Below, in pieces: positions 10,131 through 32,390 of a DNA stretch of 64,000 nt. Below the pieces are notes generated by a model, which had not been told where the DNA came from, searched no databases, and worked only from the letters and a program-made list of their open reading frames with translations. The stretch is from an uncultured Selenomonadales bacterium (lineage in GTDB: Bacteria; Bacillota; Negativicutes; Acidaminococcales; Acidaminococcaceae): contig OMYP01000011.1 of the NCBI GenBank assembly GCA_900315345.1, forward strand, positions 62,001 through 126,000, written 5' to 3'. Every line of letters starts with the position of its first letter. The first letter of the stretch is position 1. A program made the translations under genes and the position numbers.

Positions 10131-10251
10131 CACCATACCACCTCCGCAGGCATTCTTCATCACAGGAGCAAGCGAAATGCTTTACAACTTAATTCTAAAG
10201 TTTATTACTGTCAAAGTCGAAACAAATCGTGAGCCTAAGTTGTATCGCCTT

Positions 10252-13122
10252 TTATTCCAGTATGGTTATCTTGCCCTCTTTACCCGCTGATAGGTTTTTC
10301 CCTTTAAGCTCACTGGACCATTTTCCTTCAAATTTAATGTTATAGGCTTCTCTTGTAGGAAATCCCCACTTCCAGGTAGTTCCATCGGCATTATAATTAA
10401 CAATGATAACCGGCTCTTTGCCTTCCGTATTGACTTTCATAGTACAGTCGAGTGTAACTACTTCTTCCATTTTCCTGGCAGGATTTTTGGAGACATCTTC
10501 TTTGAACTTTCTGTGTCCCTTCCACGTTTTCTGCTTTGCGTCATAGGTCAGGGGTATATTGGCAGCTGCTGCCATATAATCCCCATTCGCCTGACATACA
10601 TTCAAGCCCCACCGACCGTCCTTTCCTTTGGAAAGCCTGAATCCCAAAACATTGTTACGCGTTGCGGTTTTCTTTCCCTGCGTCATGGTCGCCTTGCCAT
10701 GATAAATTCCCTCTTTCAGTTCTTCCTTTTCCAGCGTAGCCTTCAGCACGATATTTTGCTTTTTATCCTTTGTGGAGGTTACCAAAACGAGAAATACGTA
10801 ATTATCTTCTGTCTGTTTTTTGAAATCTTTTATAATGTTATTAGAGCTTGATACTGCATTTTTGTAGTTTACTGTTTTATATCTGATAACCTGTACCCGA
10901 CAACCTCCTTCTGCCTCTAACTTCAACTGACATTTTTCCGGGAGATCATCGGCTATGTTTTCTATTTGTTTTCGGCTGTTTTGTTTTTGAGGAACCGCCA
11001 GTGCGATTATACAACCCCCATACGGTCCAAGTTCAAAGGGCGGGCTGGTAAATACGACCGGCGAAGCTCCTTCTTCCTCTTTTTCTATTTTTTCTTTGGT
11101 TTTATCATCCAGTTGTATTTTGATCGCGCCTAAATAACGATCTTCTCCCGTAACCACATCCGGATGTAGACAAGCTTGGTAATATAGTGGAAGAGGTATG
11201 TGACCTATTTTTGTCATAACCTCCCTATAAAAATCAGCGGCAAAAATACCTTCTGTCAAGGCAATCTTTCTTATGTAAGACTTTAGTCGCCGACAATCGG
11301 CAGTCCAATTTTCATAACAATCCTTAATCCAGGCATCGCCACCCATCTTACTGCTTATATAATCAATCAACAATACACGCCCATAACCATCTTCTGCTGT
11401 GTTATTTTCAGGAATCACCCCACCCCACATGAACCTGGAAAATGATTGTCCATTCTCAGGAACCGCGTCGGGATAAACCACCCTTTCAAAATGCGTTGCT
11501 GTCGCCTCATCAAACCACAAGGTTTTCGTAAAATAAGAAGCCGCCCCATTGATTATACCCTGTTGTACTGCGTGAAAGAATTCATGGTAGATAGTTTTCC
11601 TTACATTCGGTCTTCGAGCTTCATCATCATAGGGCATGTTACGGTTATCACCAAACAAGCTTTTTTCCTTGAGCTGTATTTCGCCGGTCGATGAAAGCCA
11701 ACCGCCTTCATCCTTGATGTCTTCGATATAAACGTCAATCGGGGTAAATGCATCTACATAATCGGCATAACCATTCTTTTTATAGTAATTGTAGGCCTCT
11801 TCCAGATCGCTTAGCAGCTTTTGGGCGTCGTCTCCCCCCATATAATGGTTTCTAGCTGTCAGCGTATAATAGTTGTACCACAGGCGAAAATGGCCTTTAG
11901 AATATTTATAGCCCTCACCATATTGAGGCATGAATTCGTATTTTAAATAGTATCCCACATATTCCGTATACTCGCCCAAGTCCGGGGCTGTCTCCGCTGA
12001 TTTTTCAGTTGCCTTATTTCTAATCGTGCTTTGTGCCACAGCAGCCGGGTCAATGACAGCTACAGCTTTTCCATCTTTTACTTCGGCATCAAAGTAACTG
12101 TAACGCCGCGTTGTTTTGCCGTTCACCATAGGGTACTCACGACCGATGCCGAGTTTGATGTGTTGTCCGTCGTTGTTCCCCGGCTTATACTCCTTCGGCA
12201 CCGGTACGGATACCGTGACCTTTCCCTGGCAGCTCTTGTCAATCTTCATGACATACAGGTCGCCAATCAGTCCGTTATTTATTTCTTCTTCCTTATCTTT
12301 TACGGTAGTCATCGTGGCTGCGCCGTTACCCAGGTTCGTCTGTTTAAAATCCAACGTAATGTCCTTTAACGCCAGCACTCCGTTTTCCAGTTTAGCCGTG
12401 GGACGGAACAGATCCAGCAAATAGCCGGGCTTCCAGAAGCCAGTAATGCCAATGACCAACAAAACCACGGCCGCAGCGGCTGCCATCAGCCTTTTGTTCC
12501 GGCTGGATTTTTGCGGCAGTTGCGTCTGTGGTTGCGAATCTACAGATTCCCGGTTTTGAAACTGCGGTTGCGCCTGATGCTGGTACGGCTCTTCCTGCCG
12601 CGGGTATTCCTGATCCTGCTGCTGTGCTTGTTGCTGCTGCGCATATTCCCAATCTTGCGCTTGCTGTTGATACTGCGCTTGCTGCTGTACGTATTCCTGT
12701 TCTTGCGTTTGATACGACGGATCGCTTTCCACGGTTGCAGGTCCGGAGGCATACGCTCCGCCCTGTTCCAGACTCATTCCGCAATTTCCGCAGAACACCG
12801 CATCCGGAGGCAGCGCTTCCCCGCACCCGGGGCAGACAGACTGTACCGGAGCCGCTGCTTCTTTCAGCTTGGCGCCGCACATTTTGCAAAAGGTGGCGCT
12901 TTCCTTCACCGCAGCACCGCATTCGGGACAGAACGACTGCATTGGAACGCTTTCCCCGCCCAGCCTGGCGCCGCACTCTGCACAAAATTCCGCTTCGGGC
13001 AGGTTCCGGCTGCCGCACTTAGCACAGGTGGGCCCCACCAGCTGACGCACTACAGGAGCGCCGCAGTTGCTGCAAAAGTCTGAGCCTTCCAAAATTTTTT
13101 GTCCACAATTCGGGCAATGCAT
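10252..13122 (-). CDS. Zinc-ribbon membrane protein with exported HEFFH metallopeptidase-like domain
   Basis: A 956-residue protein. Four zinc ribbons lie at the N-terminus (cysteines 3/6/17/20, 33/36/47/50, 65/68/79/82, 97/100/111/114). A Q/E/Y-rich linker (about 135-205) and one membrane helix (about 211-229) follow, then a long exported part. There, YHEFFHAVQ places an HExxH zinc motif at 513-517, and WFDEATATHFE follows about 22 residues later with E539 as the likely third ligand, the gluzincin arrangement. A beta-rich C-terminal region follows. It probably cleaves or binds protein outside the cell membrane under control of a cytoplasmic zinc-ribbon tail; that is inference. Confidence 0.8.
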   Translation of the reverse strand: MHCPNCGQKILEGSDFCSNCGAPVVRQLVGPTCAKCGSRNLPEAEFCAECGARLGGESVPMQSFCPECGAAVKESATFCKMCGAKLKEAAAPVQSVCPGCGEALPPDAVFCGNCGMSLEQGGAYASGPATVESDPSYQTQEQEYVQQQAQYQQQAQDWEYAQQQQAQQQDQEYPRQEEPYQHQAQPQFQNRESVDSQPQTQLPQKSSRNKRLMAAAAAVVLLVIGITGFWKPGYLLDLFRPTAKLENGVLALKDITLDFKQTNLGNGAATMTTVKDKEEEINNGLIGDLYVMKIDKSCQGKVTVSVPVPKEYKPGNNDGQHIKLGIGREYPMVNGKTTRRYSYFDAEVKDGKAVAVIDPAAVAQSTIRNKATEKSAETAPDLGEYTEYVGYYLKYEFMPQYGEGYKYSKGHFRLWYNYYTLTARNHYMGGDDAQKLLSDLEEAYNYYKKNGYADYVDAFTPIDVYIEDIKDEGGWLSSTGEIQLKEKSLFGDNRNMPYDDEARRPNVRKTIYHEFFHAVQQGIINGAASYFTKTLWFDEATATHFERVVYPDAVPENGQSFSRFMWGGVIPENNTAEDGYGRVLLIDYISSKMGGDAWIKDCYENWTADCRRLKSYIRKIALTEGIFAADFYREVMTKIGHIPLPLYYQACLHPDVVTGEDRYLGAIKIQLDDKTKEKIEKEEEGASPVVFTSPPFELGPYGGCIIALAVPQKQNSRKQIENIADDLPEKCQLKLEAEGGCRVQVIRYKTVNYKNAVSSSNNIIKDFKKQTEDNYVFLVLVTSTKDKKQNIVLKATLEKEELKEGIYHGKATMTQGKKTATRNNVLGFRLSKGKDGRWGLNVCQANGDYMAAAANIPLTYDAKQKTWKGHRKFKEDVSKNPARKMEEVVTLDCTMKVNTEGKEPVIIVNYNADGTTWKWGFPTREAYNIKFEGKWSSELKGKNLSAGKEGKITILE

Positions 13123-21988: not shown

Positions 21989-22240
21989 GTCCCTTAACTC
22001 TCTCCCATCTCAAATATTTTTTACGTAAAAAAATCGAACAAAACACTTCTCTATTTGTATCATATTTATTAATAAAAATCAATAAGAAAAAACAGCAAAA
22101 AGATAATCGTAAAAAGACGTAAAAAGATAATGCGGAAACCGAAAAAATAAATTCCCGGAACATCTGAAAACCGGTGTTCCGGGTTTTAAGGAAATTCCTT
22201 TTTAACCGTAGTACGAATTTGATACGATTCAAAAAAAGAA

Positions 22241-22284
22241 AATCCCTGAAACTACTGTTATAAAAAGTGCTTCAGGGATTTTAA
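22241..22284 (-). terminator. Terminator in the left att arm
   Basis: The arms AATCCCTGAA and TTCAGGGATT (perfect 10 bp) are followed by T-rich sequence on the minus strand. In a chromosome without the element this would lie just after guaA and end its transcript. Confidence 0.75.
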
Positions 22285-22303
22285 TTTTTATTCGTATTCA
22301 ATG
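22285..22303. repeat. Left attachment-site core (attL/attR copy 1)
   Basis: The 19-bp sequence TTTTTATTCGTATTCAATG is identical to 32372-32390. In the right copy it is the last codons of guaA (IEYE-stop). This copy is separated from guaA by the whole element. Confidence 0.85.
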
Positions 22304-22433
22304 CTATTTTGCTTTTATGCTAATTCGGCCACTTTATATAGTGTTTTTATTATGTTTTTGTTTACTATATATTGTGGCTTGTTTTTATTTTTTTATAAAA
22401 TGGTACGAATTTAGAACGCTTTTTACAAAACTC

Positions 22434-22513
22434 CCGGCGCGGAACGCCACGCCCCGGTAAACACGCCCGGAACGGTTCAAACGTTGACCATAGCACTGAC
22501 CACCATGACCGCC
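22434..22513. repeat. GC-rich mosaic repeat, unit 1
   Basis: It contains GCGGAACGCCACGCCCCGGT, CCGGAACGGTTCAAACG and TTGACCATAGCACTGACC, variants of the words found in the other units. Confidence 0.6.
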
Positions 22514-22539
22514 GCTACTTTTTCGCGCGCGCATGTAGC
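22514..22539. repeat. CG-tract hairpin, copy 1
   Basis: GCTAC and GTAGC arms enclose TTTTTCGCGCGCGCAT. Followed by GAACTC as in the other two copies. Confidence 0.7.
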
Positions 22540-22580
22540 GAACTCCTGCTTGTTTAAAATCACAAATTGTTACTTTAAAC

Positions 22581-22608
22581 GCTACTTTTTCGCGCGCGCG
22601 CATGTAGC
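22581..22608. repeat. CG-tract hairpin, copy 2
   Basis: Same hairpin with one extra CG step, 67 bp after copy 1 in the same orientation. Confidence 0.7.
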
Positions 22609-22741
22609 GAACTCAAATTTAGAAAAATTAATGCAAAAATATTATAGTTGTTTCTGTTTCTATAACTTTTATCAGCCCTTGTTATTACTGGCTTTTTAAC
22701 CCCTGCCAACTCTTGCACGATTAAACCTTTAGCCACATAAT

Positions 22742-22779
22742 AAAAACGGCGTCACGGCCATTTTGTGACGCCGTTTTTA
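22742..22779 (+). terminator. Strong bidirectional terminator
   Basis: The arms AAAAACGGCGTCAC and GTGACGCCGTTTTT (14 bp, perfect) face no nearby gene, so it may insulate the element end. Confidence 0.8.
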
Positions 22780-22828
22780 TGATTTTAATATAATTTGAAC
22801 GATTTTTAACGATTTTTGAACACTTTCT

Positions 22829-22893
22829 ATTCCTGCTGGCCACGCTGCCAAAATTCAAAAAAACCGACCCGGATCAGGAACGCCCCGCCCCTT
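22829..22893. repeat. GC-rich mosaic repeat, unit 2
   Basis: It contains CTGCTGGCCACGCTGCCA, CCCGGATCAGGAACGC and CCCCGCCCC, words shared with other units in a different order. Confidence 0.6.
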
Positions 22894-22912
22894 ACGTAAT
22901 ATTTATATAATT

Positions 22913-22934
22913 GCCCGGTTAACCGGGCTTTTTG
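22913..22934 (+). terminator. Short terminator
   Basis: The palindrome GCCCGGTTAACCGGGC is followed by TTTTTG. Confidence 0.7.
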
Positions 22935-23031
22935 TTTTCCCCTTATTTTTTTCCGGTTTTTCCTATAATACTTGATTCGACTATGAAACAAATATTATTT
23001 ACTCTTTTTGTAAAATGTCAATTATCTTTTA

Positions 23032-23094
23032 CCGTCCCTGGAATGGTTCACACGCTGGCCATGCTATCAGATCACCAACGCCAACCGGGAAAAT
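23032..23094. repeat. GC-rich mosaic repeat, unit 3
   Basis: It runs GGAATGGTTCACACGCTGGC, CATGCTATCAGATCACCAAC, GCCAACCGGGAAA and directly abuts the stop of the ArpU-like gene. Confidence 0.7.
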
Positions 23095-23588
23095 TATTGC
23101 TTAATTAAATTCAAAAATATTTTATTATAATCTTTATCGTTTAATAGCGCATTATCTAAAATTTTCTCTTTAGCCGCTTTGTGTAATCTACGGCAATGAT
23201 GATTACTTAACTCCAATTTTTCAGCAATTTTATTAAAATTGTAACCGTTTATATAGTGCATTATCAAAATTGTTTCTTCTTTTCCACTTAAATTATTATT
23301 TTTTATTATATTCATTACCCGCTTGTAATTTTCCACTAAATCAAAAGAGGTTTTTTTAATTTCTTTTTCTATTATCTCTAACGATTCCACTTTGTCAGTA
23401 AAATTTTTTGTTTTACCGCCTTTTATTTTAGAATTTGTAAAAATTCTAATTCCGTACCTTGCAGCCGCCGAAATATGTATTTGCTTATCTAACAACATAT
23501 CAATTTTATTTTTTGCGTTTATGTATGAAAATAAATTTATTTCATTTTCTTTTTCTTTTTCTCTAATATATGCAAAAATCCTTTCCAT
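23094..23588 (-). CDS. ArpU/DUF1492-like sigma-region-4-type phage regulator
   Basis: A 164-residue protein. The C-terminal half holds a region-4-like helix-turn-helix (EETILIMHYINGYNFNKIAEKLELSNHHCRRLHKAAKEKI), the layout of ArpU/DUF1492 proteins that control late genes of phages and satellites in Firmicutes. The N-terminal half is lysine-rich and probably helical. No strong ribosome site is visible at 23588, so the start is uncertain. It is the last gene of the leftward series in the element. Its AT-rich codons differ from the host. Confidence 0.7.
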   Translation of the reverse strand: MERIFAYIREKEKENEINLFSYINAKNKIDMLLDKQIHISAAARYGIRIFTNSKIKGGKTKNFTDKVESLEIIEKEIKKTSFDLVENYKRVMNIIKNNNLSGKEETILIMHYINGYNFNKIAEKLELSNHHCRRLHKAAKEKILDNALLNDKDYNKIFLNLIKQ

Positions 23589-23650
23589 ATTTGCGCCCCA
23601 TCAAATATTACGCTTATTATTTGTTTACGCTATTGCTATTATAACATAAC

Positions 23651-23745
23651 ACCAGCCGCCACGCTACCGACACGAACAAAACACCATTACTATAACGCCT
23701 GGGCTTTCCCTGATAATAATAAAATGCCTTGCCCCGGGAAACATG
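23651..23745. repeat. Direct repeat pair, copy 1
   Basis: It shares CACGAACAAAACACCATTAC, TATAACGCCTGGGCTTTCCC and AAAATGCCTTGCCC with 23903-24010. It is followed by CCGGGAAACATGCCCCGG, a small terminator-like hairpin. Confidence 0.7.
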
Positions 23746-23902
23746 CCCCGGTCTTTTCCTTTTCCTTTTCCTTTTCCGTTTCCGCTGGCCATGCTGGCCA
23801 CACTTTCCCGGAATGATTCACACTGCTTTTCATTGCCATTACCGGCCATCATGGGAAAAGGAAAAGCCCAGCCGGGAAACTTACCGCCCTTTTACTTTCC
23901 AC

Positions 23903-24010
23903 CAGCCGCAACGCCACCGATCACGAACAAAACACCATTACTATAACGCCTGTTACTATAACGCCTGGGCTTTCCCTGATAAAAACAAAATGCCTTGCCC
24001 GGCCGTCAAC
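23903..24010. repeat. Direct repeat pair, copy 2
   Basis: Same words as 23651-23745, with an internal doubling of TTACTATAACGCCTG, and again followed by mosaic words (CGGCCACCGGAACGGCCAGC) and a terminator. Confidence 0.7.
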
Positions 24011-24092
24011 AACCACGCCCGGAACGAACGGCCATCGATCAGGACGGCCACCGGAACGGCCAGCAGCCCCAACACGCTGCCAATTTAAAACA

Positions 24093-24123
24093 GGCCGGGC
24101 AGTTAACGTTTCCCGGCCTTTTT
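24093..24123 (+). terminator. Terminator hairpin
   Basis: GGCCGGG pairs with CCCGGCC around a 12-base loop, then TTTTTG. Confidence 0.7.
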
Positions 24124-24228
24124 GCATTCATTCGCTATTTTTATAAAATTTTGTTTTTACGTTTTTTTGCATTTTTTAAAAATAATAATTTTATAGTGTT
24201 TTTCTGTGTTTTTTCCTTTCCATATAGT

Positions 24229-24275
24229 AAAACTCCCAAAAAATGTATTTTTCATTACTTTTTTTGGGAGTTTTT
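24229..24275 (-). terminator. Bidirectional terminator after the leftward operon
   Basis: The arms AAAACTCCCAAAAAA and TTTTTTTGGGAGTTTTT lie downstream of the small coiled-coil gene and can serve both directions. Confidence 0.8.
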
Positions 24276-24425
24276 GCAGAAATTGATAGGGGGCGCGATT
24301 CCGGTCGGCATCTTCAAAACTTTTTCACCCAGGGGGGTGTCCTACGTTTTTTATTGCGTTAAAAAGCGTATTTTGAAGCGTTTCTTTAGCGTTTTCCCCT
24401 TCTTCATAAATCACAAAGTAAAATT

Positions 24426-24572
24426 TTATTTATTTGGTAGTAGCACTGTTGCAATTCTTTCAACCATCGTTTTTACTCTTTGCAATTCTCCTTTTATTTC
24501 TTTGTTTTCTTCCTTTAATCTGTTTACATCTTCTTTAATTTCTTTTTCACTTTTTGTTTCAAAAATGCTCAT
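24426..24572 (-). CDS. Small coiled-coil protein (48 aa)
   Basis: A 48-residue protein, MSIFETKSEKEIKEDV followed by NRLKEENKEIKGELQRVKT with leucines/isoleucines at heptad spacing, so a short coiled coil. The CGGAGGAAAAAAAC ribosome site is strong. It follows the 186-residue gene by about 20 bases and ends before a terminator. No family recognised; a dimerising accessory factor is possible. Confidence 0.65.
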   Translation of the reverse strand: MSIFETKSEKEIKEDVNRLKEENKEIKGELQRVKTMVERIATVLLPNK

Positions 24573-24590
24573 TTGTTTTTTTCCTCCGTT

Positions 24591-25151
24591 TTATTCAGGA
24601 TATTCTATACTTTTTCTAATTCCTAATTTTAATTCTATTTTTTGCGTTCTGTATTCATCTGTTTTTTCAAATTCTTTGCGTCTTTGTGCTGCTTCTTCCT
24701 GCATTTTCAAGTATCTTTTATAAGCTCTTTTTGCCGCTCGTATTTCCGGAATTGTAAACCCTTTTTCAATGTGTTCAATATAATCGTTTTCAAGTGCAAT
24801 TAATAAAAGTTTTGTGTAAACCGCTATACAAATTGGCCTTGTGCTTCCACTTGTTAAAATATTTCTTAATATTGCTTCCGCTTTGTTTGTATATAATTTT
24901 TTTTCAAAAGGGAACTGCTTTTCAATTTCATTTAAGGTTTTTATAAGTTTAGCTGATCCCTTTTTTAATTGTTCGGCTAAATTCTTAAATTCTTCATCTT
25001 TGAAAAACTTTTCTAATTCACCATCTTTTTGTTGATAGTCTAAAAAAAATTTCAATCCGTTGTATTCAAATTCTTTACTTAATTGTTCTTTTGTTTTTAG
25101 GCCGTCCCAGTATTCCACCGGTTTAATAAAATCCATGTATTCGTCACGCAT
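24591..25151 (-). CDS. Element protein of unknown function (186 aa)
   Basis: A 186-residue, mostly helical, charged protein (KRAYKRYLKMQEEAAQRRKE near the end) without membrane segments. An AGAGAGGTAAT site precedes the ATG at 25151. It is followed in the same direction by the coiled-coil gene. I do not recognise the family. Codon use is AT-rich like the rest of the element. Confidence 0.65.
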   Translation of the reverse strand: MRDEYMDFIKPVEYWDGLKTKEQLSKEFEYNGLKFFLDYQQKDGELEKFFKDEEFKNLAEQLKKGSAKLIKTLNEIEKQFPFEKKLYTNKAEAILRNILTSGSTRPICIAVYTKLLLIALENDYIEHIEKGFTIPEIRAAKRAYKRYLKMQEEAAQRRKEFEKTDEYRTQKIELKLGIRKSIEYPE

Positions 25152-25245
25152 TTTTTTATTACCTCTCTTTCACTTTATGTCAAAATACAATTCATTATTT
25201 CGTGTGAATGCCACCCGCTGCCATAGATTCACCTCACTTTTACCA

Positions 25246-25392
25246 TTATTTGTTTTTATAAAAAAAAGAAAAAACAATATTTTCCCCTTTTCGCTTTCCT
25301 GTTTTTTTGCGTTTTCTTGCCTGCTCGCGCGCCCTTTTCATGCGTTCTGTAAATATTTTTTTTATTTGTTTTTTTGTCATTATTCTTTCCAT
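25246..25392 (-). CDS. Small basic protein (48 aa)
   Basis: A 48-residue, very basic protein (TERMKRAREQARKRKKTGKR in the middle). GGGAGGTG lies about 16 bases before the first ATG; the ATG four codons later is equally possible. Its charge suggests nucleic-acid binding. It lies between the mosaic repeat at 25430-25618 and the 186-residue gene. Weakly supported because of the long spacing. Confidence 0.4.
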   Translation of the reverse strand: MERIMTKKQIKKIFTERMKRAREQARKRKKTGKRKGENIVFSFFYKNK

Positions 25393-25429
25393 ATTGCTTT
25401 GCTTTTTTCACCTCCCACGTTACCTTAAC

Positions 25430-25618
25430 CGCCCCCGCCCCGGTTCAAATTCCCAAACGTTTGTGAATTTGCCGGAACGGTTCAACCGCTGGCCATACTG
25501 CCAGATCATCAACGCCAGCCGGAAACGCTGCCAACTTTTCCAGCAGCCACGCCCGGAACGGAACGGCCAGCCGGATCAGGAACGCCGCCACGCCCCGCCC
25601 TGGGAAACTTGCCCCGGG
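25430..25618. repeat. GC-rich mosaic repeat, unit 4
   Basis: In order it holds the palindromic AAATTCCCAAACGTTTG box (25447-25470), GCCGGAACGGTTCAACCG, CTGGCCATACTGCCAGATC, AACGCCAGCCGGAAACGCTG, then CCCGGAACGGAACGGCCAGC and a GCCCCGGGGC terminator at its end. Confidence 0.75.
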
Positions 25619-25623
25619 GCTTT

Positions 25624-26043
25624 TTATTTCATTTTCCGTAACGCCTTATTTGCTACGCTTTCCAGACGCGCCGCTTCAAAAAATGATAGTATAAGATTCA
25701 TTATTTTTCCTATACTCCATTTTATGCCATCGCTTTTTGTTAGCGATCCATAATTTGCAACGTAAATATTTTTAAATGCAGCCGCCTTTTTGCTGGCCGC
25801 TTCAAATTCCTGTAACGCTTCACCCGCCCGGAACGCTAAAAAGAATACTACTTTCCCATGTTTCAAAACATGCAGACTTTTTTCTGTATAACTGGCCGCT
25901 GCTCCTTTCATTGCGGCCTTTTCTTCTTCTGTGTCCGAAAAGCATTTATATTTTATCCCCGCTGCCTGTAACTCCTGCAATGTGTAATCGTAGTCGCTAC
26001 TATTGGCCAGCCTTTTTCCTGCTGTTTTTTTCGTGATGATCAT
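25624..26043 (-). CDS. Element protein of unknown function (139 aa)
   Basis: A 139-residue protein, alanine- and lysine-rich, with no motif I recognise. The phrase GKVVFFLAFRAGEALQEFEAASKKAAAFKN is probably a strand-helix unit. It begins one base after the stop of the 70-residue gene, with GGGGGCG as its ribosome site, so it is translationally coupled to the rep operon. It may be a replication accessory; this is inference from position. Confidence 0.65.
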   Translation of the reverse strand: MIITKKTAGKRLANSSDYDYTLQELQAAGIKYKCFSDTEEEKAAMKGAAASYTEKSLHVLKHGKVVFFLAFRAGEALQEFEAASKKAAAFKNIYVANYGSLTKSDGIKWSIGKIMNLILSFFEAARLESVANKALRKMK

Positions 26044-26044
26044 T

Positions 26045-26257
26045 TTACACGCCCCCTTTCATTTTCTTCAAAATCTCTTTCAAGCTATAAATCGTTTCAC
26101 TGTTTAAATTTTCCTTTAGATAGCAACGCCGCCCCGGTAACTTGCAGCCACACCCGGCGCAACGGTTACGGCCTGCACACGCTTGTATTATTTTAAAGAG
26201 GTATTTTTTCCGGCGCGCTTCAAAATCAGCCCGCAACCTTTCCGCTACGTTTACCAT
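26045..26257 (-). CDS. Small cysteine-rich protein (70 aa)
   Basis: A 70-residue protein. A basic N-terminus (ADFEARRKKYLFKI) leads into CAGRNRCAGCGCKLPGRRC, six cysteines able to form a small zinc knuckle. The ATG overlaps the rep stop codon (ATGGTAA), indicating coupled translation. It is probably a nucleic-acid-binding partner of the initiator, by context only. Confidence 0.65.
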   Translation of the reverse strand: MVNVAERLRADFEARRKKYLFKIIQACAGRNRCAGCGCKLPGRRCYLKENLNSETIYSLKEILKKMKGGV

Positions 26258-27246
26258 AATACCCCCTGTATACCTTTTTCTTTATAACCCGGAATAGCTA
26301 ACGTTATGTCATTTCCCGCCGCTTCAAATTCCTTTAACGCTGCCTCATCATATAAGGCCATTACCCGCGCCCATTTCTTTTTGCTCATTAATTGCATACT
26401 GATATAAAAATTCCCTGTATAGCTGTTATATTCCCTTTTTATGTCAGTTACCACAAAATTTCTGTGATACTTTTTTACAAACTTTATTAATTCATTGTGT
26501 GACGCTTCAAAACTACTGCTGTTAAACAGTGATATTTGTTCAAACTGTTTTTTGCTGCAAACGTTATCAGCCTTACTTGTACCCGGTAAAATTAAACCCG
26601 TTGACTGTTTCCACCGTTTCCGGCCTTGCCCTTTTCGTGTTTCTTTTGTCATATAGCGGGAAATTCTGACCATATAATCCGGGCTTTTCCCTTTTAATGT
26701 TGCGCTTGCTATTTGTATCCGTTTTGCGTTCGCCCAGCCCAGCCGCTCACGTTCAGAACAAAACGGCCTTACTTGCCTTGACCATAAATTTTCTATTAAA
26801 TCACGCGGTAAACAGTTTTTTAATAACATGTGGTGATGTATACGCCCGCGCCCTGTTTCCGTAACGTAAATATATTTTAATGTTTTCACGCCCTGGGCTT
26901 TTGCTGCCTTGCGTAATTCCCTAATATATTTCTTTATGATCTTTTCCGCGTCCGCTTCCGTTTCTGGTAAAAATTTATCTGAATAAGTCAGTGATATAAA
27001 ATAGTCGCTTTCGTCAAAATTTCCTTTTACCAGTAAATCAAAATATAAACGGCTCTTTTTGTCGTTTAAAATTTGTTTTGCCGGAGCGGTTAATTTTTCT
27101 TTTCCGTCTTTCGTCTTTGTGATCTGTATAGGCTCTAAATCTTCCGGGCTATGCTGAAAAATAATAACGTTTCTATATTCTGCTTTTTTTATATCCCTGT
27201 TACTGTAAAATGTCCGCTGCCTAATATTACTATTACTTTTCATCAT
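26251..27246 (-). CDS. rep: HUH-type rolling-circle replication initiator
   Basis: About 331 residues from the ATG at 27246 (a GTG at 27267 is possible). FISLTYSDKFLP (about 83-94) fits motif 1. GRIHHHMLLK (about 134-143) is the metal-binding HUH motif 2. YMVRISRYMTKET (about 191-203) carries the candidate nicking tyrosines, as in Microviridae/inovirus-like and plasmid Rep proteins. It would nick an origin and start rolling-circle synthesis or mobilisation. The upstream mosaic repeat at 27340-27615, with its palindrome, is a candidate origin or operator. Two short genes overlap or abut its end. The HUH call is good; the substrate origin is inference. Confidence 0.8.
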   Translation of the reverse strand: MMKSNSNIRQRTFYSNRDIKKAEYRNVIIFQHSPEDLEPIQITKTKDGKEKLTAPAKQILNDKKSRLYFDLLVKGNFDESDYFISLTYSDKFLPETEADAEKIIKKYIRELRKAAKAQGVKTLKYIYVTETGRGRIHHHMLLKNCLPRDLIENLWSRQVRPFCSERERLGWANAKRIQIASATLKGKSPDYMVRISRYMTKETRKGQGRKRWKQSTGLILPGTSKADNVCSKKQFEQISLFNSSSFEASHNELIKFVKKYHRNFVVTDIKREYNSYTGNFYISMQLMSKKKWARVMALYDEAALKEFEAAGNDITLAIPGYKEKGIQGVLW

Positions 27247-27339
27247 TGCCCGCCCTTGTGTTTCCACTTTTTAGCCTACACTTGCAAGACCAACGCGGCC
27301 TAACGCCGCCTTTATTATTTCTCTTTTTCCCCGCGCTGC

Positions 27340-27615
27340 CATCGCTGGCCACGTTTCCAGCCCCAGAACGCCCTACACGCTGCCACGGATCAGAACGAAC
27401 GCCAGCCGGTTCAGGTACGCCCACGCGCCGCCGCCCTGACTCAAATTCCCAGACGTTTGTAAATTTGCCGGAACGGTTCACCCGCTGGCCATGCTATCAG
27501 ATCAGGAACGCAAACCCGGGAACGCTGCCAACATTACCTGCAGACGCGCCCAGAATGAACGCCAGCAGCCGGAACGCCCGGAACGATTCCCGCCCCGGTA
27601 CGTCCGGCCATGCTT
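27340..27615. repeat. GC-rich mosaic repeat, unit 5 (upstream of rep)
   Basis: The longest unit. It holds CTGGCCACG, CACGCTGCCACGGATCAGAA, the AAATTCCCAGACGTTTG box (27443-27466), GCCGGAACGGTTCACCCG, CTGGCCATGCTATCAGATC, GGGAACGCTGCCA and CCCGGAACGATTC. An opposite-strand reading frame in it is an artefact. Confidence 0.75.
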
Positions 27616-27619
27616 CCAA

Positions 27620-27874
27620 TTATCGCCGTGCAAATTTATTGTTTTTCAAGTGATTATACATTGCTACATCGTCGGCAAACCATTTTTGCACAGATACCCA
27701 AAAATTATAAAGTGTTTCATCTTTAAAATTTGGTTCAATACCGTTTACAATGTATTTGTAAATCGCCTTGATACATTCCCCGGCCTGTTCGTCTGTCATT
27801 CCTGCTATGCTGTCAGACCATTTAACAGGCATTTTAAACCACACAAAACCTTTTGCCGCTTTATCACTTTTCAT
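27620..27874 (-). CDS. DUF6291-like phage/element protein (84 aa)
   Basis: An 84-residue protein with the pattern FVWFKMPVKWSDSIAGM, DEQAGECIKAIYKYIVNG and FWVSVQKWFADD, as in DUF6291-type proteins next to phage replication genes, where a longer form contacts DNA or the initiator. This copy stops soon after the core. The GAGGTAAGC site precedes the ATG. It lies just upstream of the repeat that precedes rep. Confidence 0.7.
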   Translation of the reverse strand: MKSDKAAKGFVWFKMPVKWSDSIAGMTDEQAGECIKAIYKYIVNGIEPNFKDETLYNFWVSVQKWFADDVAMYNHLKNNKFARR

Positions 27875-27891
27875 TTTGCTTACCTCTTTTT

Positions 27892-28043
27892 AGATTCCAG
27901 CAGCCCCGCCCCGGTTCAAATTCCCAAACGTTTGAGAATTTGCCGGAACGGTTCACCCGCTGGCCATGCTTTCAGATCAGGAACGCAACCCGGGGAACGC
28001 TGCCACGGATCAGAACGGCCATGACCGCCCCCGGCTTGCTTTT
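27892..28043. repeat. GC-rich mosaic repeat, unit 6
   Basis: Contains the AAATTCCCAAACGTTTG box (27918-27941), GCCGGAACGGTTCACCCG, CTGGCCATGCTTTCAGATC, GGGGAACGCTGCCACGG and ATCAGAACGGCCATGACCG in the same order as unit 5. Confidence 0.75.
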
Positions 28044-28068
28044 TAAAATATCCCTGTGCTATAATGAA

Positions 28069-28320
28069 TTAGCCCTTAATTTCTATGGTGGATTTTAACG
28101 GCTTGCCCTGTTTCCGTTGGCGCGGTACAGGGCTTTTTCTTTTTTCCGGCCACATTCTCGCGTAACCCTCCGCTATTGCTATTAAATATTCGCCCGCCGT
28201 TTTAATGTGTGCAAAATCAATATTGTTTAGAGTGCAAGCTATTTTTGCAGCCGTTTCCCCCACATATTCAGCGCGCTTTGTATCATTTGTCATTGTAATA
28301 TCAATTATTTTTGCTGTCAC
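28069..28320 (-). CDS. Element protein of unknown function (83 aa)
   Basis: An 83-residue protein beginning MTAKIIDITMTNDTKRAEYV and ending in a basic tail (RKSPVPRQRKQGKPLKST). The middle helix (YLIAIAEGYARMWPEKR) is common in small phage proteins. It starts about 10 bases after the upstream gene, which suggests an operon. No family recognised. Confidence 0.55.
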   Translation of the reverse strand: MTAKIIDITMTNDTKRAEYVGETAAKIACTLNNIDFAHIKTAGEYLIAIAEGYARMWPEKRKSPVPRQRKQGKPLKSTIEIKG

Positions 28321-28330
28321 TCGTTGCGCC

Positions 28331-28699
28331 CTACCCTTTCCACGGTTTATTTATAAGGCCGTCCCTGTCCTGCCAGCCGTCCAAATAACCTAATTCGTAA
28401 CCGCTGGCCGTGGCCTTGAATAATAAATCTCCGTCCGATTCCCTTACTTTGTCAAATTCTGGCAAATTTAAGAAGTCTAACCAGCCATCATTAAAATCTA
28501 ATCTATGTAATAGCTTTTCATTTAAAGTCGTTTTGTTTCCGCTATGGCCTGCCCTAATTCCGTACAGTTTGCAACCATATCCCGCCCTGTAATTCCTGCT
28601 AATATCGTTACCGTTTCCAGCCTTACCAATTCCATAATTTTTTCCGTCAATTTTTCCGCTAAACTCAATATAAACACCCCTTACAAACTCATTACCCAT
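28331..28699 (-). CDS. Element protein of unknown function (up to 122 aa, N-terminus doubtful)
   Basis: The open frame gives 122 residues. The last 55 or so (RLDFNDGWLDFLNLPEF onward) look like a real protein. The first half (KNYGIGKAGNGNDISRNYR) has odd composition and overlaps a good-looking frame at 28522-28668. The ATG at 28699 lacks a clear ribosome site. The true gene may start later at a non-standard codon, or the region may have a frameshift. Confidence 0.4.
   Translation of the reverse strand: MGNEFVRGVYIEFSGKIDGKNYGIGKAGNGNDISRNYRAGYGCKLYGIRAGHSGNKTTLNEKLLHRLDFNDGWLDFLNLPEFDKVRESDGDLLFKATASGYELGYLDGWQDRDGLINKPWKG
28522..28668 (-). CDS. Alternative small protein (48 aa, TTG start)
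   Basis: In another frame than 28331-28699, a TTG with AAGGGG upstream opens 48 residues: LSLAEKLTEKIMELVRLE then TVTILAGITGRDMVANC and LGQAIAETKRL. Its composition is more protein-like than the overlapping frame (regular amphipathic helices). It starts about 13 bases past the stop of the small membrane protein, as expected in a tight operon. Only one of the two frames need be real. Confidence 0.45.
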   Translation of the reverse strand: MSLAEKLTEKIMELVRLETVTILAGITGRDMVANCTELGQAIAETKRL

Positions 28700-28827
28700 A
28701 ACGCCCAGCTTACCAGCTTATGAACTGCAAACGCCGTTGCCAATGTTGCCAACGTCAGCAACGTATATTTGAAAATCTCACAACCGTAATAATAAAAGCA
28801 CATTGCCATAAAAGAAAATCTGTCCAT
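28681..28827 (-). CDS. Small membrane protein (48 aa)
   Basis: A 48-residue protein with one hydrophobic helix (TLLTLATLATAFAVHKLVSW), preceded by an aromatic and Cys-containing segment. AAGGGGTGAAATC before the ATG is a fair ribosome site. It follows the excisionase-like gene. It resembles small hydrophobic proteins of phages and satellites (holin-like or superinfection-control), but nothing specific identifies it. Confidence 0.55.
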   Translation of the reverse strand: MDRFSFMAMCFYYYGCEIFKYTLLTLATLATAFAVHKLVSWALWVMSL

Positions 28828-28838
28828 GATTTCACCCC

Positions 28839-29042
28839 TTACACTTGCAATTTACTTTCAAAATATTTCCTGTTTACCTTTCCTCTAATAGTCAGCTTTC
28901 CCATTGCCTTTAATTCCTCGTTACATTGCCTAATAACCTTATAGGCCAAACCAATTTTACAGCCTAACGCCGCCGCTACTTCCGGCGCGTCCATCATATA
29001 ACGCCGTTGTCTATCCGCTGCCATATTCCCCGCCGCTTCCAT
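28839..29042 (-). CDS. Excisionase-like / AlpA-type HTH protein
   Basis: A 67-residue protein. YMMDAPEVAAALGCKIGLAYKVIRQCNEELK is a winged-helix/MerR-like HTH, and LTIRGKVNRKYFESK is the typical tail of Firmicutes Xis-like proteins. It would bind the att arms and direct the integrase toward excision, or act as a regulator. It stands first in the long leftward series. The call rests on family pattern. Confidence 0.7.
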   Translation of the reverse strand: MEAAGNMAADRQRRYMMDAPEVAAALGCKIGLAYKVIRQCNEELKAMGKLTIRGKVNRKYFESKLQV

Positions 29043-29079
29043 TGCTTTTCCCCCTTTCCCACTTCCAGCTTTTCCGCTG

Positions 29080-29172
29080 TCTGAAAGTCTTAACTGCTGG
29101 CCATGCTTTCAGATCACCAACGCCAGCCGGGGAACGCTGCCAAACTATCAGGACGTACACGCCCCCGGTTCA
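29080..29172. repeat. GC-rich mosaic repeat, unit 7
   Basis: It holds CTGCTGGCCATGCTTTCAGA, TCACCAACGCCAGCCGGGGA, ACGCTGCCAAACTATCAGG and CGCCCCCGGTTCATGACC. Confidence 0.7.
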
Positions 29173-29202
29173 TGACCTGGCCACGCTGGCCGCCCATTGC
29201 TC

Positions 29203-29226
29203 CCCGGTAACGTTACCGGGCTTTTC
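29203..29226 (+). terminator. Short terminator
   Basis: The palindrome CCCGGTAACGTTACCGGG is followed by CTTTTCTTT. Confidence 0.65.
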
Positions 29227-29270
29227 TTTCCCGGTATGTTTCCGGGATCATTGCGGCCATATTCCCCGCC

Positions 29271-29296
29271 GCTACTTTTTCGCGCGCGCATGTAGC
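29271..29296. repeat. CG-tract hairpin, copy 3
   Basis: GCTAC and GTAGC around TTTTTCGCGCGCGCAT, followed by GAACTG; same as the copies at 22514 and 22581, about 6.7 kb away. Confidence 0.7.
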
Positions 29297-29375
29297 GAAC
29301 TGACATTTATATTCCCTGTTTTCCTCACTTCCTTTCATTGCCGGAACGTCCTACCGCTTCCGGCTTTTTTATTTG

Positions 29376-29482
29376 CAACCGCTGCCAATACTGGCCATGT
29401 ATCAGGCCAGCCCCGGAACGGTTCACGCCGGAACGGTAACACCACCAGCCAGATCAGGAACGAAACACCCAGCCCCAGCAGC
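29376..29482. repeat. GC-rich mosaic repeat, unit 8 (overlaps a gene end)
   Basis: CAATACTGGCCATGTATCAG, CCCGGAACGGTTCACGCCGG and CAGCCAGATCAGGAACG. Its right part is read as the last codons of the HTH gene at 29423. Confidence 0.65.
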
Positions 29483-29908
29483 TAACGCACTTTCAAAAAG
29501 CTTTTTGTTTTCATTCTCTAAATAAGCTTCGTAAATATCACGCGCCATATTTAGACCACACTCTAACAGCTTTAACGCCGCCGCCAATGCTTCCGATATG
29601 TCGCTGTTATCCGCTGCCACTTCCGCGCCGTCTAAAATACTTTCCCGCGCTTCCGTTATTATCTGTATAAGTTCTTTGTAATCGCTTCCATTTACCCCGG
29701 CGGGCTTTTCCTTTTCAAAACCTAATAATGTATTTACATCTGTACCCAATGCCGCCGCCAGTTTTAACAGTGTTTCTATTTTAGGCTCATAACCGCGCGT
29801 TTCATAATTGTTATAAGTCGAAAAAGAAATACCTATTTTTTCGGCAAGTTCTTTTTGACTATAATTAGCTTTTTCGCGATAATACCGCAATCGTTCTGAA
29901 AAACTCAT
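29423..29908 (-). CDS. XRE-family HTH regulator
   Basis: A 161-residue protein with a classic HTH_3 domain at residues 4-60 (RLRYYREKANYSQKELAEKIGISFSTYNNYETRG), followed by a helical alanine-rich region. The last 15-20 residues (VPDLAGGVTVPA) are encoded by a mosaic repeat, so the natural C-terminus may have been replaced. It is on the strand opposite the repressor-like gene at 30413 and may activate or repress the leftward genes. Confidence 0.8.
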   Translation of the reverse strand: MSFSERLRYYREKANYSQKELAEKIGISFSTYNNYETRGYEPKIETLLKLAAALGTDVNTLLGFEKEKPAGVNGSDYKELIQIITEARESILDGAEVAADNSDISEALAAALKLLECGLNMARDIYEAYLENENKKLFESALAAGAGCFVPDLAGGVTVPA

Positions 29909-30006
29909 TCCCTTTAATTTCCCTTTCCGCTGCCATGTTGGCGCATAGCAGACTATTCCCGTATTAGCATATAGTGTATGGTGGATTTCCTACGGCTTGC
30001 CCCGGT

Positions 30007-30204
30007 TCATGCGCTGGCCAAAATTTCCGCAACGTCAACGCCCAACGCCGCCGCCAGCTTGCCCGCTGTTTTGGTGTTTACTTCTTTGCCGTCCTTTATA
30101 CGTTTTGCTGTAAAGCTTGAAGTGTGTGCAGCTTTTAACGCTTCCCCAACTGTTAAACATTTTCGCGCACATGCCAACCGGATTTTTTCAAAATCTAATT
30201 TCAT
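30007..30204 (-). CDS. Cro-like XRE HTH protein
   Basis: About 65 residues from the ATG at 30204, which has AAAGGGGCGAAAA upstream; the frame is open further but without a site. LACARKCLTVGEALKAAHTSSFTAKRIKDGK is a small XRE-type HTH and TKTAGKLAAALGVDVAEIL its last helices. It is divergent from the larger HTH gene at 30413 across a 208-bp AT-rich control region, the arrangement of cI/cro or stl/str switches. Its stop falls at the edge of a repeat word. Confidence 0.75.
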   Translation of the reverse strand: MKLDFEKIRLACARKCLTVGEALKAAHTSSFTAKRIKDGKEVNTKTAGKLAAALGVDVAEILASA

Positions 30205-30412
30205 TTTTTCGCCCCTTTCAATTTTTAACATTTGTTTTGCATATGCAAAATTATATTTTGCTTTATTACGAATTTTATCAAATATGTTTTTGCATGTCAA
30301 TATAAATTTTGCTTTTTTTTGTTTTATGTTAAATATAATTTTACTTCTTTTCCTTTCCGTGCTATAATACGTAAAAATACAACCTTTTATTTTTTTAAAA
30401 TTTGGTGATTTT
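30205..30412. promoter_or_regulatory. Divergent control region between two HTH genes
   Basis: About 208 AT-rich bases with TTTGCATATGCAAAA (a palindrome, about 30236-30250) and TTTTTGCATGTCAA near 30290. On the plus side CCGTGCTATAATACG gives a -10 at about 30361-30366 for the repressor. The TTGCATATGCAA palindrome is a likely operator. Confidence 0.55.
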
Positions 30413-30964
30413 ATGAAATATTATGATAAGCCTATTACATTCCCGCAAAATTTAAGAAAAGCACGAACTAACGCTGGTTACACACAAGCAGCTTTAGCCG
30501 AAAAATTAGGAATGACAAGGCAAAATTACGCAAGATATGAAAACGATTTAATGTATGCTACCCCTACATTAGATTTATTATGTGATTTATCCGCTATTTT
30601 AAGTGTTGATATTAATACCCTTGTTGGATTTCAGCAGGACGAACACGCCGCCTTGCTGTCATTGTTGCGTACTGCTGACATACGTTTTGAAGTGGATCCC
30701 GATGACTGCAACGCCTTATTTGTAGAAAACTGTTTTGATGATAGCAATAATAAAGACTGGTATATGGAAATAGCCGCACATTTGACTTTTGATGATTTAA
30801 AAGTTATCATTGCCACAACGCAAACAGAAATAGAAAAGCTAACCGCGCCTATTTTTTATCGCGTTTTTCAAGATAATCTGTTTAAATTTAAAGTAAATAG
30901 CCCATCTGATCCAAAAGATAGAATGTTATGGAAAACACCGCCGGAAGATACCGGGAGCGAATAA
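30413..30964 (+). CDS. cI-like XRE repressor
   Basis: A 183-residue protein with an N-terminal HTH_3 domain (NLRKARTNAGYTQAALAEKLGMTRQNYARYEND, about residues 13-45) and a 110-residue C-terminal region of unknown fold, with no visible LexA-type serine protease motif. It is divergent from the Cro-like gene and upstream of the integrase on the same strand, so it is probably the maintenance repressor. Ribosome site weak (TTGGTGATTTT). Stop lies directly before mosaic repeat unit 9. Confidence 0.8.
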   Translation: MKYYDKPITFPQNLRKARTNAGYTQAALAEKLGMTRQNYARYENDLMYATPTLDLLCDLSAILSVDINTLVGFQQDEHAALLSLLRTADIRFEVDPDDCNALFVENCFDDSNNKDWYMEIAAHLTFDDLKVIIATTQTEIEKLTAPIFYRVFQDNLFKFKVNSPSDPKDRMLWKTPPEDTGSE

Positions 30965-31128
30965 GCCGCCCCAGCTTTTCCGCTGCCAGCAGCTCACACG
31001 CTGGCCACCATGCCGGGAACGGTTCAACCGCTGGCCATGCTTTCAGATCAGGAACACCAGCCCCAGCACTTCCCGAAACGCCAATCGGGAAACGCTGCCA
31101 CGGATCAGAACGGCCAGCCCTGGGAAAA
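30963..31128. repeat. GC-rich mosaic repeat, unit 9
   Basis: It holds CACGCTGGCCACCATGCCGG, GAACGGTTCAACCGCTGGCC, ATGCTTTCAGATCAGGAACA and GGGAAACGCTGCCACGG. It fills the space between the repressor and the integrase hairpin. Confidence 0.75.
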
Positions 31129-31157
31129 ATAAATAATAAAACCACCATAGAAATAAT

Positions 31158-31190
31158 AAAGCCGCCTGTTACGCCAATAACAGACGGCTT
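31158..31190 (+). terminator. Hairpin before the integrase gene
   Basis: AAGCCGCCTGTTA pairs with TAACAGACGGCTT with one mismatch. It lacks a good T run, so it may be an attenuator or an operator rather than a strong terminator. Confidence 0.5.
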
Positions 31191-31225
31191 GCAAGGGCTT
31201 TTCTTATGCCCGGAAAGGGTAAATC

Positions 31226-32299
31226 ATGCCTGTAAAATCTTATAAAGACAGGAACGGAAAAACAAAATATTATTGCAGCTTTTACTACACCGATTCTAAC
31301 GGCGAACGTAAGCGAAAAAAGATAGAGGGTTTTTCTTTCAGCCGGGACGCAAAACAAGCGGAAAAGGATTTTCTTGATAAAATAGCCGGTAATACTACAA
31401 TGACGTTTCGGTTATTGTCAGAATTATATTTAAAAGACTGTAAGGCACGTTTAAAACCGACAACATATAAAGCGAAAGAATATTTCTTTAACGCTAACTT
31501 AATTAATTTCTTTAAAGATAAACCTGTTTGTGAGATCACCCCGGCCATGATCCGGGACTGGCAAAACCAACTTTTGACACACCGGCCGCCGTATTCGCAA
31601 ACATACATGAAAACTTGTAGTAATTGGTTATCAGCATTTTTTAATTTTGCCGTCAGGTATTACGATTTAAAAATCAACCCTGTACGAATTGCCGGAAGTA
31701 TAGGAAAAAGCCATTCGGGACGGCTTGATTTTTGGACCGTTAGCGAATATAAAACATTTATGCAAGCTTTAAAAGCTGATACGCCTTTTTCAATGGCTTT
31801 TGAATTGCTGTTTTATACTGGTATGCGTGAGGGTGAACTGCTGGCCTTGACCGTTTCCGACATCGATACAGCCGCCGAAACAATAAGCATAAATAAAACC
31901 CTGTCAGTAATTGACGGTAAAATCATCGTCACGCCGCCCAAAACCCCAAAAAGTAAACGTATTGTAACTATACCGCAAAAAGTAGCGAAACATTTACAGG
32001 CTTATATAAATTCCCTGTATGATCCACAACCAGCCGAAAGACTTTTCCCAATGGTAAATAAATATAGTTTAGGAAAAATGCTAAAAAAGACGGCCACCGC
32101 CGCCAATGTAAAAATAATAAGAGTGCATGATATAAGGCACTCTCACGCAAGTTTATTAATTGAATTAGGTTTTCCCCCGCTGCTGATTTCCGAACGGTTA
32201 GGCCACGAACGCATAGAAACGACATTACAAATTTATTCGCATTTGTACCCAAACAAAGCAACTGAAGTAGCAAAAAAATTAAATAATTTTGTGGAATAG
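31226..32299 (+). CDS. int: Tyrosine-type integrase
   Basis: A 357-residue site-specific recombinase. The N-terminal AP2-like arm-binding region (KSYKDRNGKTKYYCSFYYTD) and SAM-like core-binding domain (about 60-150) are followed by the catalytic domain with R201 (TGMREGEL), H301 and R304 (HDIRHSH), H327 (LGHERI) and Y337 (IYSHLYP). All catalytic residues are present, so it should be active. The ATG at 31226 follows GGAAAGGGTAAATC. It lies right beside the att core at the guaA end, as usual for integrases. Confidence 0.93.
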   Translation: MPVKSYKDRNGKTKYYCSFYYTDSNGERKRKKIEGFSFSRDAKQAEKDFLDKIAGNTTMTFRLLSELYLKDCKARLKPTTYKAKEYFFNANLINFFKDKPVCEITPAMIRDWQNQLLTHRPPYSQTYMKTCSNWLSAFFNFAVRYYDLKINPVRIAGSIGKSHSGRLDFWTVSEYKTFMQALKADTPFSMAFELLFYTGMREGELLALTVSDIDTAAETISINKTLSVIDGKIIVTPPKTPKSKRIVTIPQKVAKHLQAYINSLYDPQPAERLFPMVNKYSLGKMLKKTATAANVKIIRVHDIRHSHASLLIELGFPPLLISERLGHERIETTLQIYSHLYPNKATEVAKKLNNFVE

Positions 32300-32371
32300 T
32301 ACGAATTTGGTACGATTTAAAAAAAGTAAACCCCGGAACGCCTGTTATTATCAGTGTCCCGGGGATTCTGT
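32300..32371 (-). terminator. Right att arm with terminator
   Basis: GTACGAATTT and GGTACGATTT are putative integrase arm sites. A hairpin follows (ACCCCGG with CCGGGGAT), T-rich on the minus strand, which would end guaA transcripts. The arrangement is the same as at 22211-22284 with different stem bases. Confidence 0.65.
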
Positions 32372-32390
32372 TTTTTATTCGTATTCAATG
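32372..32390. repeat. Right attachment-site core (copy 2)
   Basis: Identical to 22285-22303. It overlaps the guaA stop codon and its last five codons, so insertion keeps guaA intact. Confidence 0.85.

Follow-up and report, generated by a model that had tools for sequence, protein, structure and literature searches.

Interspersed repeats of bacteria are usually seen as chromosome-wide parasites. Here we analyse a family of GC-rich repeat blocks in a 64-kb stretch of DNA (the window) on contig C20 of the 2.3-Mb genome of an uncultured Selenomonadales bacterium. The blocks are confined to one integrated, satellite-like element, they all have the same orientation, and several of them adjoin terminator-like hairpins that point against the surrounding genes. 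The repeat is a variant of modular intergenic repeats, with one-strand polarity and inverted terminators as its new and most informative features. An initial annotation of the letters alone had missed both the single shared orientation and the rightward terminators.

That annotation knew of no described family that fits, and we likewise found no close one. The NIMEs of Neisseria consist of dRS3 and RS repeats, with the formula ATTCCC(N8)GGGAAT for dRS3 (PMC3898611). They are also intergenic mosaics of short modules, and three of our blocks hold a palindrome close to the dRS3 formula. However, NIMEs occur in hundreds of copies across the chromosome whereas our repeat is limited to the element. 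Of the roughly 13 blocks, 3 hold the palindrome, each time with one arm that is imperfect, and there is no dRS3 bracketing. The genome contains no exact match to the dRS3 formula. As the general formula is not common but rare in the bacterial family, the likeness is a resemblance only; with neither the dRS3 companion nor chromosome-wide copies, membership in the NIMEs is not supported. BOX, RUP and SPRITE of pneumococcus are small modular intergenic repeats as well, and SPRITE resembles a terminator (PMC3049150). Their copies are scattered along the whole chromosome and use both strands (about 60% leading), whereas here we observed one element and one strand. We saw no inverted copies and no apparent terminal inverted repeat, which does not agree with an interspersed repeat of the BOX or RUP kind, related to miniature inverted-repeat transposable elements. 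BIME and REP sequences share the mosaic intergenic character, and BIMEs are described as alternating in orientation (PMC2817692). In our case 20 of 20 copies point one way, the whole unit is not palindromic and the copies are found in the element rather than genome-wide, so this membership is not supported either. Finally, the stoperators of mycobacteriophages are repeated one-directional intergenic sites which were proposed to damp stray prophage transcription (PMC3029335). These are 13-bp repressor sites, whereas we found 60-nt mosaics, which are absent from the repressor control region and lie beside intrinsic terminators.

Repeat blocks on one strand of one element

The five recurring words that had been described for the blocks are all present at the positions given before, and an alignment confirms their shared order. 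In the element CCGGAACGGTTCA (2 mismatches allowed) occurs 10 times on the + strand, CGCTGGCCATGCT and CAGATCAGGAACGC 9 times each, GGGAACGCTGCCA 7 times and CGGATCAGAACGGCC 4 times, and none of them occurs on the - strand. Over 0.42 Mb of the host, word densities were ~20-110 times lower. For the core CGCTGGCCATGCTNTCAGATCA we counted 6 matches in the window compared to 0 expected from shuffles. We also built a 65-nt sequence model (R1) from six full units and searched both strands with E<=10: there were 20 matches in the window, 20/20 in the element and 20/20 on the + strand, of which the weakest could individually be chance. The blocks and the related hairpin modules are as follows.

22425-22500, + strand: block B1, with CCCGGAACGGTTCA words; R1 match 22466-22491
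22509-22614, + strand: two copies of the hairpin module CGCTACTTTTTCGCGCGCGCATGTAGCG; fold z -3.5
22826-22900, + strand: block B2; R1 match 22832-22884
23028-23095, + strand: block B3, full unit; R1 65.6 bits
23648-23733, + strand: block B4a; 48-nt repeat in common with 23953-24000
23776-23870, + strand: block B4b; CGCTGGCCATGCT at 23783
23900-24092, + strand: block B4c
25425-25596, + strand: block B5; R1 68.7 bits; 100-nt repeat; ATTCCC-N8-GGGAAT-like palindrome 25449-25468
27325-27620, + strand: blocks B7 and B8, the largest, upstream of rep; R1 73.3 bits at 27467-27530; palindrome 27445-27464
27892-28035, + strand: block B9; R1 73.8 bits; palindrome 27920-27939
29060-29200, + strand: block B10; R1 65.6 bits
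29266-29301, + strand: third copy of the CGCTAC...GTAGCG hairpin module, 100% identical to 22509-22544
within 29340-29490, + strand: block B11, after the terminator 29340-29364; R1 matches 29391-29418 and 29428-29483; overlaps the 3' end of open reading frame (ORF) 29423-29908
29998-30030, + strand: partial block B12, inside the 3' end of the cro-like ORF; CGGTTCA and CGCTGGCCA
30965-31120, + strand: block B13, between the cI-like gene and the integrase; R1 64.5 bits; genes here rightward

The number of blocks, given before as at least nine, can thus be refined to about 13, with three of them in 23651-24090. The single orientation is kept even where the gene direction reverses. We found 61 of 70 exact word matches in non-coding DNA, which makes up only 37% of the element; as the words were picked from the blocks, any p-value for this bias is optimistic. 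The GC content is 57% in the blocks and 35% in the other intergenic DNA. The claim that the blocks encode nothing holds in so far as they are mostly intergenic, but two ORFs, 29423-29908 and 30007-30204, extend into blocks with their 3' ends. With an irregular spacing of 475-2434 nt and 62-95% identity between repeats, that is, not near-identical ones, the blocks are not CRISPR, as had been stated. A coding origin was considered for GTVHPLAMLSDQER, which appears in one frame of several blocks, and was rejected, as the variation does not fall mainly on third positions and the frames break. A further short repeat consists of TATGGTGGATTT followed by ACGGCTTGCCC at 28080-28110 and 29972-30000, with a related inverted piece at 31140-31155.

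The view of an element-specific family was borne out by the word densities in the host and by the whole genome, where all 6 core matches (<=2 mismatches; 6 forward, 0 reverse) lie in the element. Of the two findings named beforehand as refuting the family, an equal word density in the host chromosome and a lack of shared order, neither was observed. Across 58 other genomes of the family we found 3 scattered 2-mismatch matches to the core and no match to the 65-nt model, and the hairpin module CGCTACTTTTTCGCGCGCGCATGTAGCG is confined to this element among the 59 family genomes. The model gave one match in 300 genomes of the class (G083, 24.9 bits, E 4.7e-5), which lies inside a TetR-family gene and is probably due to chance. 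Ten genome contigs matched a 21-nt pattern; these are single matches in unrelated taxa and were treated as chance. Repeat searches of phage, plasmid and IMG/VR sequences gave no match in collections some of which may omit strains near this genome. Elsewhere in the same genome (C7, 18520-18803 of L056) there is a 280-bp tandem array of GTTACATG-type repeats, which are unlike the blocks.

The full 65-nt unit is present in six blocks with the consensus TGCCGGAACGGTTCACCCGCTGGCCATGCTTTCAGATCANNAACGCCAGCCGGGGAACGCTGCCA; GCTGGCCAT and CAGATCA are invariant in 6/6. About 21 nt form a nearly invariant core, and the flanks are unrelated. The palindrome AAATTCCCAAACGTTTGNGAATTT is located 5' of the unit in B5, B8 and B9 and is absent from B3, B10 and B13. 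For the centre module we observed GATCAGG in B8, B9 and B13 and GATCACC or GATCATC in B3, B10 and B5. The end module is CGGATCAGAACGGCC in B9 and B13 and AAC...CAGC...CGCCC in B5 and B8. All four combinations of palindrome and centre are seen (B8, B5, B13, B10), which suggests exchange between copies as a simple explanation, read from the alignment and not from a formal test. This alignment also supports the earlier statement that modules recombine. Four other genomes of the genus contain a near-identical palindrome site (<=2 mismatches), whereas the remaining genera of the family have none; two of the genus genomes contain ATTCCCAAACGTTTGGGAAT exactly, and the palindrome was also found in one IMG/VR contig. 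Several of the sites in other genomes adjoin accessory genes, and three lie within 2 kb in G009. On contig C10 of G009 (9200-11211) tandem paralogues of 128-139 aa that start with MAKYLGGI have ATTCCCAAACGTTTGGGAAT palindrome copies between them, which looks like a small cassette array.

We found no Rfam match above the gathering score for the blocks. The covariation term does not favour a fold, with one pair changed on both sides in 6 sequences only, and a structured RNA family was rejected on these two results. Small RNA genes were also rejected: rightward promoters were not consistently seen to the left of the blocks.

Terminators that face the genes

In the element the integrase and the CI-like gene run rightward and the remaining listed genes run leftward. 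The terminators, called by program unless noted otherwise, have the following positions.

22744-22776, no single strand: intrinsic terminator, bidirectional
22913-22928, + strand: intrinsic terminator, rightward, 13 nt after B2
23734-23751, + strand: terminator, rightward, abuts B4a
24093-24118, no single strand: terminator, mostly rightward, called in both directions, abuts B4c
25597-25620, + strand: terminator, rightward, abuts B5 and the stop of ORF 25624-26043
27295-27309, + strand: terminator, rightward, immediately left of B7, upstream of rep
28105-28133, + strand: terminator, rightward, inside the 3' end of ORF 28069-28320
29203-29220, + strand: terminator, rightward, 3 nt after B10
29340-29364, + strand: long-loop rightward terminator before B11, found by eye
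31159-31190, - strand: terminator, leftward, antisense to cI and int

Across 22304-30204, where all genes are leftward, there are 10 rightward terminator-like hairpins, compared to a mean of 0.7 and a maximum of 2 in shuffles. The same region has 3 leftward hairpins: two are bidirectional and the third follows the last gene, at the extreme left. Across 30205-32296, where the genes are rightward, both terminator matches are leftward. We then contrasted the gaps between co-directional genes, calling host and element terminators by one procedure. In 0.42 Mb of the host 44 terminators were sense, 5 were antisense and 11 were two-way; in the element 0 were sense, 6 antisense and 1 two-way (Fisher test of sense:antisense vs host, 1.6e-5). 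The inverted hairpins in the leftward array therefore give the operon stop signals against antisense transcription and no sense-only ones between its genes. The hairpins are also close to the blocks: one follows 1-3 nt past the end of B4a, B4c, B5 and B10 and 13 nt past B2, and B7 and B11 start just after a terminator.

Possible reasons for the layout

We tentatively favour the following reading, to which we assign a probability of roughly one third: a single modular one-way cassette was copied within a satellite-like element to give the blocks, which act in part as a barrier to antisense or read-through transcription. Copies would have spread from gap to gap by direct-orientation recombination or template switching inside the element, and would have been retained since blocks and terminators form a one-way barrier. 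The leftward replication operon could then be read through, while rightward read-through, whether from cI and int over the junction formed in the excised circle or from spurious antisense starts, would be stopped. B13, in the rightward cI-int gap, would limit read-through from cI to int. A rightward source of RNA polymerase is plausible from the map, because cI and int are rightward and in the excised circle face the left end of the leftward operon. We infer the barrier function from the predicted hairpins and the layout. A family that is limited to one 10-kb element, strand-locked and paired with counter-gene terminators suggests a selected layout, and it could serve to test how satellites shield a lytic operon from convergent transcription. 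Should the function not hold up, the family would still show clearly how a repeat multiplies within one mobile element. It seems rather unlikely to us that the element insulates itself by a dedicated barrier family spread by recombination, with a strand-locked self-copied cassette in most gaps of the leftward operon, many with an inverted terminator. In this view, with inverted terminators beside one-way modules, RNA polymerase could cross the element in one direction only.

Several observations weigh against a barrier. B3 and B13 have no rightward terminator, so not every block is paired, and the conserved words are not needed for terminator function. The block edges beside the terminators were set by eye, and the terminators are not fully independent, because some resemble each other; their numbers are small. 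Rho-type C-rich windows on the antisense strand do not set the element apart (43 vs 12 per 10 kb in the host, 45 vs 1 in the element). The host and its relatives commonly show such antisense C-richness, and Rho utilisation sites were rejected on this ground. In G001 a 13-kb satellite-like element in a tRNA-Arg gene (C18, 1478-14707 of L082) has a late regulator, a 186-aa protein and a cro-like protein in common with our element, and a long primase/helicase-like protein replaces Rep; it has no blocks.

The main rival, almost as likely as the barrier, is that the blocks are neutral or selfish GC clusters, i.e. a short GC-rich repeat that was multiplied in an AT-rich element by slippage, template switching and gene conversion during replication of the excised form, is tolerated only between genes and is functionless. 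Mosaic partial copies with apparent exchange, the intergenic bias together with the overlap with ORF 3' ends, a repeat unique to one element and the absence of any conserved RNA structure would all be expected for such clusters. However, they do not predict the inverted terminators, and a nearly invariant core amid unrelated flanks and a complete orientation bias are difficult to reconcile with them. The parasitic repeat of the initial annotation is still a candidate, but a spread in which orientation is chosen freely conflicts with 20/20 matches in one orientation. Recombination linkers, a common sequence at gene borders by which related satellites swap genes as cassettes, would account for apparently recombined blocks at gene borders and for the palindrome of three blocks, which four further genomes of the genus also contain, in several instances next to accessory genes. 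We give them little credence: the blocks are in no other element, so no exchange partner is seen.

That the blocks are cis-acting DNA sites for replication or packaging, such as Rep binding or nicking sites or helper-phage sites acting on one strand, appears unlikely, if less so than linkers. The element encodes an HUH-type Rep, the polarity is restricted to one strand and the largest block lies just upstream of rep. Yet the copies are dispersed over 9 kb, not clustered at one origin, and an apparent prophage in G006, with terminase- and portal-like ORFs (named by eye) and a 67%-identical Rep, has no block copy, neither in the prophage nor upstream of its rep. Since no copy accompanies the closest Rep in its prophage, such sites are less likely, and the replication iterons proposed before are not supported; for packaging sites taken alone, the evidence points neither way. 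The skew at 4-fold sites also shows no element-wide rolling-circle asymmetry above the host level. Least probable are operators or stoperators for the element's repressor, i.e. many asymmetric sites that silence stray transcription. The layout is similar to that of the one-directional intergenic stoperators (PMC3029335), but a unit of at least 60 nt is much longer than 13 bp and the strand of B13 is unchanged although the genes turn. A stoperator is also the repressor's operator at its own promoter, and the cI/cro promoter gap (30204-30413) contains no block word, which makes operator sites unlikely.

The host element

The limits given before, 22.3-32.4 kb, can be refined by a 19-bp core to about 22,285 to 32,390 of the window. 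This segment of ~10.1 kb lies between pckA and guaA (both named from translations).

22285-22303, no strand: attL core TTTTTATTCGTATTCAATG, 19-bp identity to 32372-32390
23094-23588, - strand: late-regulator/sigma-like protein; DUF1492, phrog_36
26251-27267, - strand: Rep, rolling-circle (HUH-type) initiator; PF23343 E 3e-11, phrog_3584 E 3.5e-46
28839-29042, - strand: excisionase-like protein; weak ICEBs1 Xis match below cut-off, phrog_989
29423-29908, - strand: helix-turn-helix (HTH) repressor-like protein
30007-30204, - strand: cro-like HTH protein; weak Pfam match, tblastx 52% match to the G001 element
30413-30964, + strand: CI-like HTH repressor
31226-32299, + strand: tyrosine integrase; PF00589 with SAM-like and arm-binding domains
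32372-32390, no strand: attR core, overlaps the 3' end of guaA

The leftward genes also include a DUF6291 protein and several small family-less proteins, and no structural gene was recognised among the element genes. A wider repeat around the att core extends over 91 bp with 80% identity, and its left copy (22209-22303) contains a terminator hairpin. Judged by these predictions, the element has the gene content of a phage satellite: it is within 7-20 kb, att-flanked, and has integrase, regulation and replication genes without virion genes. With its ~10 kb, flanking att sites, integrase, regulators and replication gene and no recognised structural gene, it resembles phage-inducible chromosomal island (PICI)-like satellites (cf. 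PMC13376191). The searches made returned no phage satellite described with repeats of this kind. G010 carries another integrated element adjoining guaA (C25, 212-5380 of L049), which encodes a mobilisation-type protein and an integrase of 43% identity; in this genus, insertion at the 3' end of guaA is therefore recurrent.

Further compositional features were encountered. Alanine codons track the gene direction in 22304-32296 (leftward GCG 58 / GCC 16; rightward GCC 17 / GCG 4). They had first suggested strand polarity as a rolling-circle mark, which we dropped as the 4-fold-site skew averages to the host level. Strand-restricted restriction sites were likewise considered and rejected: neither GTTCC nor GAACC occurs on the + strand, but the deficit is small outside the blocks. 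GGNCC has 1 site in 22304-32296 compared to 31-35 per 10 kb in the host flanks, and GGCC is common (53); this looks like the outcome of selection on the element to escape a restriction enzyme that cuts GGNCC.

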